Of a stretch of 17,800 nucleotides of DNA, positions 3,756 through 6,918 are shown piece by piece. Each line of letters begins with the position of its first letter. The stretch's first letter is position 1. This DNA is from Candidatus Auribacterota bacterium. Its GTDB lineage: Bacteria > Auribacterota > JAFGBW01. A program made the position numbers and the translations under genes. The notes under the pieces were generated by a model. That model had not been told where the DNA came from and searched no databases. It saw only the letters and a program-made list of their open reading frames with translations. Location: assembly GCA_016932965.1 (NCBI GenBank), contig JAFGBW010000065.1, positions 1 through 17,800 of the forward strand. Reading direction: 5' to 3'.

Positions 3756-4919
3756 TTAAAAGCTGCCGATAGCGGTGAGCCTTTCATAGGCCCGGCATAG
3801 TCCGGAGAAAATGCGGCTGTATGTGTCCTTTCCCTTGTCGTCGCCACCCAGGCTGATTCTGACTGCTCCCCGGGCGATATGATCAGGGACGTTCATGGCC
3901 TGTAAGACATGCGAAGGTTCCGGATCATTGTCCAGACAGGCTGAGGATGTAGTGACGAAAATGCCTCTTGATTCCAGTTCGATCTGGACCGCCTGGCCGT
4001 ATATTCCCGGATAAGAGACGAGTGTTGTGCCGGGAAGACGCTCTTTTATTTCACCGGCTATATACAGGCAGGGAAATTTTTCTTTCAGGTTTTTTTCGAA
4101 TTTTTCTCTGGAAGCCCTGAGGAGGTCGATATGGCTGATTGAGTGTTTCATGTCTTCCAGGGCAATGGCAAGGGTTTCAATTCCGATGTAATTTTGGGTG
4201 CCTCCCCGCAGGCCCTTTTCCTGTATTGTTCCCAGGATAAGAGGGGTGAACAATAAAGGATTTTTTATCAAAAGGATCCCGCATCCGGGAAGGGCGCCGA
4301 TTTTATGACCGGACACAACGGCAAAATCAAATCCGGACTCCTCAAAATTAAACGGGAGCTTTCCAATCAATTGGGCGGTGTCGCAAAAGTAAAGAACATC
4401 ATTTTCCCGGCAAAAGGCTGAGATTTTTTCGTACGGCTGCACCACTCCTGTTTCATTGTTGGCTGCCATCACGCTCACGAGAGAAACCCCTTTTGATTTT
4501 CTTCTGAGGAAGCTTTTGATGTATTCCGCATCAGTCACACCATTGGAATCTGCCGGGATTTGAGTGATGACAAATCCTTTTGAGCTGTAATAATCCGCTG
4601 TACGGATAACGGCATGATGTTCGATGGATGAGATGAGGATGTGTTTTTTCCGGTTTTTTCTGCCGTATTCACAACAGGAGTGAAAGGCTGATGTGATCCC
4701 TTCTGAAGAACCTGAATTGAAAAGGATTTGTTCAGGTTTTGCACCCAGGATTTCCGCGCAGATATGACGGCTCTCCTCGATTTTTTTCATGATCTGTCTG
4801 CCTGCATGGTGCAGGGAATTAGGGTTGGCATAAGGGCCCCCCCCGGACAGTCTTTTCTGCAGATAAGCCCCCACCTGGGAAGTCAAAGGTGAACTGGAGT
4901 TGTAATCAGCATAGACCAT
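3756..4919 (-). CDS. Cysteine desulfurase-like class-V aminotransferase (NifS/IscS family)
   Basis: This is a PLP enzyme of 387 residues, full length for the family. The N-terminus VYADYNSSSP matches the usual YLDYNATTP start. Key residues visible are His101 (SSIEHHAV), Asn154-Glu-Thr (ANNETG), Asp180 and Gln183 (CDTAQ), the PLP lysine Lys206 in SGHKIG, and the candidate catalytic Cys328 in SSACLDNDPEPSHVL. Such enzymes take sulfur from cysteine for Fe-S clusters, thiolated tRNA or cofactors. No iscU, mnmA or suf gene is adjacent, so its partner is unknown. Around the lysine, GALPGCG replaces the more usual YGPKGVG. The start is fixed by homology, yet no Shine-Dalgarno sequence precedes it. 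A run of eight G lies in codons 26-29 (complement of 4847-4854). NifS, IscS and other subtypes cannot be told apart here. Confidence 0.88.
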   Translation of the reverse strand: MVYADYNSSSPLTSQVGAYLQKRLSGGGPYANPNSLHHAGRQIMKKIEESRHICAEILGAKPEQILFNSGSSEGITSAFHSCCEYGRKNRKKHILISSIEHHAVIRTADYYSSKGFVITQIPADSNGVTDAEYIKSFLRRKSKGVSLVSVMAANNETGVVQPYEKISAFCRENDVLYFCDTAQLIGKLPFNFEESGFDFAVVSGHKIGALPGCGILLIKNPLLFTPLILGTIQEKGLRGGTQNYIGIETLAIALEDMKHSISHIDLLRASREKFEKNLKEKFPCLYIAGEIKERLPGTTLVSYPGIYGQAVQIELESRGIFVTTSSACLDNDPEPSHVLQAMNVPDHIARGAVRISLGGDDKGKDTYSRIFSGLCRAYERLTAIGSF

Positions 4920-5295
4920 AAGGATGGAAAGGGTGGATTTTAAATCATGAATGGATTTCAGACAGATTCATATATTCTCATGACGAATGGCAGTCTATCC
5001 TTGAAAATACATGGTATCAATCTTTATTTCAACCTCTTCATGCGGCGGACAGGTCTTTTTTTGACGGAGGCTATGTTAGGGCTGGATTCATTTTCTTTCC
5101 TGCGTTTAAGCATTTCTGAGAGGCAGAAAAGATAAGAATTGATGATTGATAAAAAATCGAATAGTATTTTGTCTTATTCATTTGACAGGGGTTTCATTCA
5201 TTGTCCTGGATGAATGAAACATCAGATCCAGGACCAACATCGTTTGATTTATGAATTGATTGAGACGATTCAGTTAGAAAGTGGAGGAAAACATC
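4920..5295. other. Spacer with possible decayed or cryptic small ORFs and a structured leader
   Basis: This 376-base spacer lies between two divergent genes. In the left part two overlapping plus-strand frames stay open: 4947-5135, with an ATG but no convincing ribosome-binding site, and 4922-5119, which looks more protein-like but lacks a standard start. Neither is supported enough to call a gene. The right part holds TTGACA (5182-5187), the interleaved inverted repeats at 5191-5234, and the ribosome-binding site of the TMEM43-family gene. Confidence 0.5.
5191..5234 (+). promoter_or_regulatory. Two interleaved perfect inverted repeats 5' of the TMEM43-family gene
   Basis: Stem A pairs GTTTCATTCAT (5191-5201) with ATGAATGAAAC (5210-5220), 11 bp with no mismatch. 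Stem B pairs GTCCTGGAT (5203-5211) with ATCCAGGAC (5226-5234), 9 bp with no mismatch. The left arm of B is essentially the loop of A. As RNA this gives either two alternative hairpins or an H-type pseudoknot (11-bp and 7-bp stems). As DNA it could be a compound operator. It sits 62 bases before the start codon at 5296 and just after a consensus TTGACA box at 5182-5187; no good -10 box was found at the right spacing. Confidence 0.6.
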
Positions 5296-6462
5296 ATGTC
5301 TGAAAACAGTTTTACGGAAGTCACACATCAATCCTGGTTCAGCCGGATCGGCAATTCCATAAAAGGGATTCTTGTAGGGGTGGTTTTATTTGTTGCCGCT
5401 TTTCCGCTTCTGTTCTGGAATGAGGGGAGAGCTGTCAGAAGATACAAGGCTCTGAAGGAAGGGAGCGCGGTTGTGATTTCTGCTCCATGCGATAAACTCA
5501 ATCCGGAAAACAATTCCAAGCTGGTCCATATGTCCGGAACGGCGACAACGGAAGAAACACTGAGTGATCCGATTTTCAATGTATCGGACAAGGCGATCAA
5601 ACTGAAACGCCATGTTGAAATGTATCAATGGAAGGAATCCTCAAAAAGCAAGACCGAGAAGAAATTGGGCGGCGGAACGGAAACCGTGACCACCTATGAG
5701 TACACAAAAACATGGGATGACGATGTCATTTCCTCTTCCGGATTTAAAAAACCGGAAGGTCATGATAATCCTGCCGGAATGCCTTTTGAATCCGAAACCA
5801 TAAACGCTTCCGATGTTAAACTGGGTGCCTATCAATTATCTCCGGGTCTCATTGATATGATCAGCGAATTCACCAATTTGGATGTGTCCGGTGTGCCGAA
5901 ATTGAAAGCCAACGTCGATAAAACCGTTCATGTGGTGAATGGCGGTTATTATATTGGAAATAATCCAACTCAGCCGGAGATCGGGGATTTAAAAGTAAGC
6001 TTCAAGGTTGTCAAACCCCTTCAAATCAGCATCGTGTCGGAACAGATCAACGACACTTTCCAGCCTTATCAAACCCAGGCGGGAGACGGAACCATTCAGC
6101 TCCTTCAAACCGGAGAAGTGAGCGCCCAAGCCATGTTTCAGACTGCACAAAAGCAGAATGTATTCATGACATGGGTCATCAGAGTGGTTGGTTTCATCAT
6201 GATGTACCTGGGGATATCCCTGATTTTCAAACCGCTGTCGGTTCTGGCGGATGTTCTGCCTTTACTGGGTACGATAGCCGAAACAGGCATCGGCCTTATC
6301 GCCTTTCTTTTTGCCTCGGTTTTTTCATTGCTGACGATTTCCATCGCCTGGATCATTTACCGGCCCCTGGTGGGCATTGTGCTTTTATTGGCGACCGGAG
6401 GAGCCGTATATGGAATCAAGACCGTATTGAAAAAGAAACCCAAACCAGCAGTCGGCGGATGA
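5296..6462 (+). CDS. TMEM43-family (DUF1625) membrane protein
   Basis: This encodes a protein of 388 residues. Helix 1 (about 21-40) leads into FWNEGRAVRRYKALKEG (40-56), the hallmark of the TMEM43/LUMA family. A large, mostly hydrophilic domain (about 57-290) follows, which in this family faces the non-cytoplasmic side. Three to four membrane helices occupy about 293-380, and the tail is short and basic (KKKPKP). Bacterial members have no established function; human TMEM43 is an inner nuclear membrane protein. The frame could start at GTG 5281, but GGAGG at 5283-5287 lies 8 bases before ATG 5296, which settles the start. It is preceded by the structured element at 5191-5234 and followed after 69 bases by a response-regulator gene on the same strand, so the two may be co-transcribed. 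Confidence 0.85.
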   Translation: MSENSFTEVTHQSWFSRIGNSIKGILVGVVLFVAAFPLLFWNEGRAVRRYKALKEGSAVVISAPCDKLNPENNSKLVHMSGTATTEETLSDPIFNVSDKAIKLKRHVEMYQWKESSKSKTEKKLGGGTETVTTYEYTKTWDDDVISSSGFKKPEGHDNPAGMPFESETINASDVKLGAYQLSPGLIDMISEFTNLDVSGVPKLKANVDKTVHVVNGGYYIGNNPTQPEIGDLKVSFKVVKPLQISIVSEQINDTFQPYQTQAGDGTIQLLQTGEVSAQAMFQTAQKQNVFMTWVIRVVGFIMMYLGISLIFKPLSVLADVLPLLGTIAETGIGLIAFLFASVFSLLTISIAWIIYRPLVGIVLLLATGGAVYGIKTVLKKKPKPAVGG

Positions 6463-6531
6463 GTGATTGCGTTTTATTTTATGGATGATGTTTTCATTAT
6501 ACCTGTAACTATTTCAGAGTGATTGATTTTT

Positions 6532-6918
6532 ATGAAAATACTGATCGTTGAAGATGACAAGACTTATGCAGAAGTGTTGAAGGAATTTTTGACTTTCCGT
6601 CTGCAGACGGAAATCGAACTGGTTCATGATCATAAACAGGTTCAATCCACTGCGGAATCATTCAAGCCCCATCTGATTTTACTGGATCTTGGTTTAGGGG
6701 CGCATCCGGAGGCCAGCGGGCTGCCTGTCTTACAGAAGTTATCGGAAGGAGCGGATACCAAGGATATCCCGGTCATCATTATCAGCGGTTATAATGAAGC
6801 CAATATCCTGAAGCAGGTCATCTCCCGCAAGGTGGCTGAATACGCGGTGAAACCCATCAATCTGACGGATCTTCTAGCCAGGATAAAGAAAGTACTGGGT
6901 AAAAAAAATCTGATCTGA
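6532..6918 (+). CDS. Single-domain response regulator receiver protein
   Basis: This 128-residue protein is a REC domain with no output domain, like CheY or Spo0F. The acidic pocket is Asp8/Asp9 (VEDDK), the phospho-acceptor is Asp52 (LILLDLGLG), the switch residue is Ser85 (IIISGYNE), and Lys107 is followed by Pro108 (AVKPIN). All key residues are present, so it should accept phosphate from a histidine kinase. No kinase gene lies in the window, so it is an orphan. The frame could begin at TTG 6523, but the ATG at 6532 matches the family start (MKILIVEDD). The ribosome-binding site is poor. Output must be through protein contacts; a link to the upstream membrane protein is only suggested by position. 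Confidence 0.92.
   Translation: MKILIVEDDKTYAEVLKEFLTFRLQTEIELVHDHKQVQSTAESFKPHLILLDLGLGAHPEASGLPVLQKLSEGADTKDIPVIIISGYNEANILKQVISRKVAEYAVKPINLTDLLARIKKVLGKKNLI

Follow-up and report, generated by a model that had tools for sequence, protein, structure and literature searches.

Two interleaved perfect inverted repeats upstream of a bacterial TMEM43-family gene: a possible RNA pseudoknot in a genome rich in perfect hairpins

Do two inverted repeats that cross one another ahead of a bacterial TMEM43-family gene form a regulatory element, acting either as RNA or as DNA, or do they represent an ordinary hairpin of the genome with a coincidental partner? The repeats lie in a divergent intergenic region of 376 bp (positions 4920..5295 of the window, the whole 17,800-nucleotide stretch of DNA that was analyzed). 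On one side of this region is an aminotransferase class V gene on the minus strand (3756-4919). On the other side, on the plus strand, is a gene of 388 codons (5296..6462, ATG at 5296), whose assignment to the TMEM43 family was borne out by a match to Pfam TMEM43 (PF07787, E = 1.1e-85). A GGAGG at 5283..5287 on the plus strand reads as its Shine-Dalgarno sequence. The TMEM43 family is known from human heart disease; a limited search of the literature returned no described role, function or regulation for a bacterial TMEM43. A stand-alone response-regulator receiver gene is located 3' of the TMEM43 gene (window 5296-6918).

The first repeat (S1, 5191..5220, plus strand) has perfect 11-bp arms, GTTTCATTCAT at 5191-5201 and ATGAATGAAAC at 5210-5220, around the 8-nt loop TGTCCTGG (5202-5209). 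As an RNA hairpin, it has a calculated energy of -13.1 kcal/mol, including an added U-G closing pair. The second repeat (S2, 5203..5234, plus strand) has perfect 9-bp arms, GTCCTGGAT at 5203-5211 and ATCCAGGAC at 5226-5234, around a 14-nt loop, and its RNA hairpin is calculated at -14.4 kcal/mol. The left arm of S2 consists of seven of the eight bases of the S1 loop plus the first two bases of the S1 right arm; the S1 hairpin and the full 9-bp S2 hairpin exclude each other. The two perfect interleaved repeats are thus present as the sequence-only reading had described them. The octamer AAACATCA occurs twice in this region, at 5217-5224 (S1 right arm and downstream flank) and at 5289-5296 (just before the TMEM43 start codon), in the contexts GAAACATCA and GAAAACATCA, respectively. 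A frame of 29 codons (5214-5303) begins within the S1 right arm and stops 8 nt inside the TMEM43 gene, overlapping the start of that gene as translationally coupled frames do. As a leader peptide this frame was rejected, having no Pfam match and a length that is common by chance; a 31-aa frame that begins near 5040, likewise without a Pfam match, was also set aside.

In an H-type pseudoknot, S1 would keep its 11 bp, followed by a 1-nt loop, 7 bp of S2 and a 7-nt loop, with the two stems abutting at 5209/5210. S2 is reduced to 5203-5209/5228-5234 in this layout, in agreement with the earlier description, as two of its bases belong to the S1 right arm. The stacking energies of both stems sum to about -31 kcal/mol, compared to -12.5 to -14.4 kcal/mol for the single hairpins. 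The penalty for a pseudoknot is typically about 10 kcal/mol, so the pseudoknot should be favored over either hairpin alone, which weakens the case for two alternative, exclusive states. On these estimates, geometry and stacking allow both interleaved stems to form together, and a pseudoknot of S1 and S2, as had been proposed, is possible. The coronavirus IBV-type frameshifting pseudoknot, in its minimal form, has a stem 1 of 11 bp, a stem 2 of 6-7 bp, a very short loop 1 and a loop of 7-8 nt. The likeness to S1/S2 is one of geometry only; S1/S2 is located outside a coding frame, S1 is rich in A+U, and no slippery site is implied.

Shuffle tests, which cannot count a pseudoknot, found the single-strand fold of the surrounding 90 nt no better than that of shuffled sequences (z = -0.31); for the leader of 137 nt the advantage over shuffled sequences was slight (z = -0.81). 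A scan of the whole window against Rfam 15 returned only a tRNA, and a scan of 4900-5400 up to E = 10 returned only a chance match (E = 3.9). No riboswitch or cis-regulatory RNA family of Rfam 15 matched at or above its gathering score, consistent with the earlier statement that no riboswitch family fits.

The suggestion that the two hairpins act as a mutually exclusive switch or attenuator was not supported. In the 137-nt fold, S2 frees the left arm of S1 to cover the Shine-Dalgarno region; the pairing of the freed arm with this region amounts to -8.4 kcal/mol, a value equalled by 30% of shuffled arms. Sequestration of the Shine-Dalgarno sequence by the S1 left arm was rejected, because the pairing is at chance level and is lost in a longer fold. 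We consider it very improbable that one of the two exclusive hairpins is an intrinsic terminator or attenuator. The mutual exclusion of the fully formed S1 and 9-bp S2 is what such a device would use, but a terminator scan found no T-run after either stem on either strand, and no long plus-strand gene precedes the hairpins within the divergent region.

Whether S1/S2 would be part of a transcript depends on where transcription starts. The TTGACA hexamer that had been noted beside the element is present at 5182..5187 on the plus strand; it was rejected as a promoter, since it has no -10 partner at 16-18 bp (CCTGGA stands at 17 bp). Lacking a -10, this hexamer gives no argument for a transcription start downstream of S1/S2. 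A possible weak promoter, TTGATG-N17-TAGTAT (5139..5167, plus strand), would give a start near 5174 and place S1/S2 in the transcript; with 8 of 12 matches it is below the limit of the promoter scan and no better than chance.

To judge how unusual the repeats are, we compared them to a dinucleotide Markov model and to a 268-kb sample of the genome (sampled stretches plus the window). Under the model, 17.8 kb should contain about 0.2 perfect repeats whose arms have at least 11 bases, and 28.4 Mb of model sequence contained two interleaved 11/9 pairs. The genome sample contained 19 perfect repeats with arms of at least 11 bases, vs. about 2.6 expected under the model. Perfect hairpins are thus in about 7-fold excess in this genome, and S1 belongs to a common class. 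Looser interleaved 9/7 pairs were also more numerous than the model predicts (8 observed vs. about 1.2 expected in the same sample), and about 16 hairpins with arms of at least 10 bases were counted in about 27 kb of intergenic DNA. With S1 given, a crossing arm of at least 9 bp arises in 0.24% of random loop and flank contexts, and at least seven S1 loop bases pair to a flank in 1.2% of them. Applied to the approximately 190 intergenic hairpins extrapolated for the genome, this conditional chance of 0.2-1.2% gives an expectation of about 0.5-2 pairs like S1/S2 genome-wide. The arrangement is unusual locally; its occurrence somewhere in the genome is not. The genome also contains several intergenic perfect hairpins with arms of 18-21 bp and loops of 3-8 nt (L033:6964-7008, L033:7033-7071, L032:8410-8453, L043:8777-8818 and L046:8799-8844). 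These have no obvious T-run after them, and the two in L033 are 24 bases apart; the four contigs that carry them had no Rfam matches.

For conservation, this genome was compared with 43 others of the phylum, making a set of 44 in which it is the sole member of its family. TMEM43 has a patchy distribution, being found in 11 of the 44 genomes (own included). The nearest TMEM43 protein is 53% identical, only one carrier belongs to the same order (47%), and none belongs to the same family. Neither S1, S2 nor the interleaved pair was found upstream of the TMEM43 genes of the phylum relatives and of nine more distant ones, including the leader from the same order. In this comparison only 64 bases upstream were covered for L025. 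In L011, L013 and L016 the matched part could start within a longer gene, in which case the stretch compared may not be a leader. Conservation of the stems, part of the check that the sequence-only reading had put forward for its proposal, was thus not seen in any TMEM43 relative examined. All of these relatives are distant, which makes the negative result weak and leaves it compatible with a lineage-specific element.

Similar DNA was absent from the rest of the genome and from the 43 other genomes of the phylum. Covariance models of the single stems, built from one sequence and therefore prone to miss a strongly diverged relative, gave no match above chance in the TMEM43 loci of the relatives or in the organism's own genome; the best match of the S1 model over the 44 genomes had E = 0.07, which is chance level. 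A repeat element or mobile hairpin was rejected, as no second copy was present in the genome, the relatives, plasmids or viral contigs. The genes that neighbor TMEM43 differ among the relatives examined, and no conserved neighborhood was found. In the closest relative (L019, matched on its minus strand), another inverted repeat, which is G+C-rich and has a 24-nt loop (GGCCAGGCCA / TGGCCTGGCC), is located just upstream of the start codon; in sequence it resembles neither S1 nor S2.

The repeats could also act as DNA. The 30-bp dyad GTTTCATTCAT-N8-ATGAATGAAAC, helped by additional ATTCAT half-sites (at 5176 and at other places between the two genes), might bind a dimeric regulator that controls TMEM43, the aminotransferase gene on the other side, or both; we regard this as unlikely. 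The region 4920..5295 contains seven ATTCAT/ATGAAT words (at 4947, 4966, 5086, 5176, 5196, 5210 and 5251), vs. 0.55 expected in 376 bp from the genome sample. Seven such words, the highest count, were reached in one of the 5219 sampled windows, the most frequent hexamer has at least seven copies in about 1% of Markov-simulated regions, and the half-site recurs as a direct repeat 20 bp upstream. However, these words were counted post hoc and two of the seven belong to S1, so the excess lends mild support to a putative protein-binding site. Against an operator, the dyad is unique in the genome: the sole other match is degraded, with 3 mismatches, and searches with a variable spacer found none. 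The 12-base half-site (at most one mismatch) occurs 61 times genome-wide, vs. 64-72 expected; a control that used the reversed word was misleading, because the expected count of the reversed word is much lower. An operator shared by a regulon was rejected, since no other clear dyad is present and the half-site is not enriched. In addition, no -10-containing promoter extends over the dyad, and an operator would not account for S2. CIRCE operators, which are bound by HrcA, have perfect 9-bp arms around a spacer of 8-9 bp and are located between promoter and start codon of chaperone genes. S1 resembles them in its long perfect arms (11 vs. 9 bp), similar spacer and location between a possible promoter and the start codon; it differs in that its arm sequence is unrelated, TMEM43 is not a chaperone gene, and the genome has no second site.

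Another explanation is that the TMEM43 leader is a regulatory RNA acting in cis, in which the S1/S2 pseudoknot would be bound by a protein or small molecule and control translation. Both stems are perfect and stable, and the energy gain of the pseudoknot remains after the penalty is subtracted. The element ends 61 nt before the ATG, and a transcription start near 5174 would place it within the leader. Pseudoknots upstream of an initiation site are known, as in the leader of mycobacterial rpsO (PMC10931766). The leader pseudoknots of ribosomal-protein genes (rpsO/uS15 and alpha operon/uS4; PMC10931766) likewise contain two stems that interleave, but those leaders belong to ribosomal-protein genes, whereas S1/S2 precedes TMEM43 and showed no conservation. 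The absence from the TMEM43 relatives examined counts against such an RNA, as do the lack of an Rfam family, the lack of another copy in the genome, and a pairing between S1 arm and Shine-Dalgarno sequence that is no better than that of shuffled arms. We regard a leader RNA of this kind as possible, though on the doubtful side, and the narrower proposal, that this bacterial TMEM43 leader carries a regulatory pseudoknot peculiar to its lineage, as decidedly improbable.

The reading that we prefer, tentatively and at a little short of an even chance, is that S1 is an ordinary intergenic hairpin, one of many in this genome, and that S2 crosses it by coincidence. Because hairpins are so common here, and S1/S2 is neither repeated nor conserved in any related sequence, the pair is probably an ordinary or one-off element. 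Counted against the ordinary hairpin are the conditional chance of 0.2-1.2%, which is small for one place, the leader-like position, the good fit of the stems to a classical H-type pseudoknot, and the distance of the relatives, whose lack of S1/S2 is poor evidence against a lineage-specific element. The likelihoods given here to the ordinary hairpin, the leader RNA, the operator and the terminator are judgements and not computed probabilities.

S1/S2 is a real feature of the DNA and, judged from its sequence, a putative regulator at most. Should the transcribed TMEM43 leader include this region, S1, S2 or the pseudoknot would form in the RNA some 50 nt ahead of the Shine-Dalgarno sequence. Such a fold would probably have no specific role; it may at most provide a generic 5' structure that affects mRNA stability or spacing, rather than a dedicated switch. 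Perfect hairpins are a frequent background in this genome, and a single interleaved pair is no evidence of an RNA switch. If S1/S2 did work as a leader element, bacterial TMEM43 would have a cis-regulatory RNA of its own, and with it an initial clue to the conditions under which bacteria use the protein.
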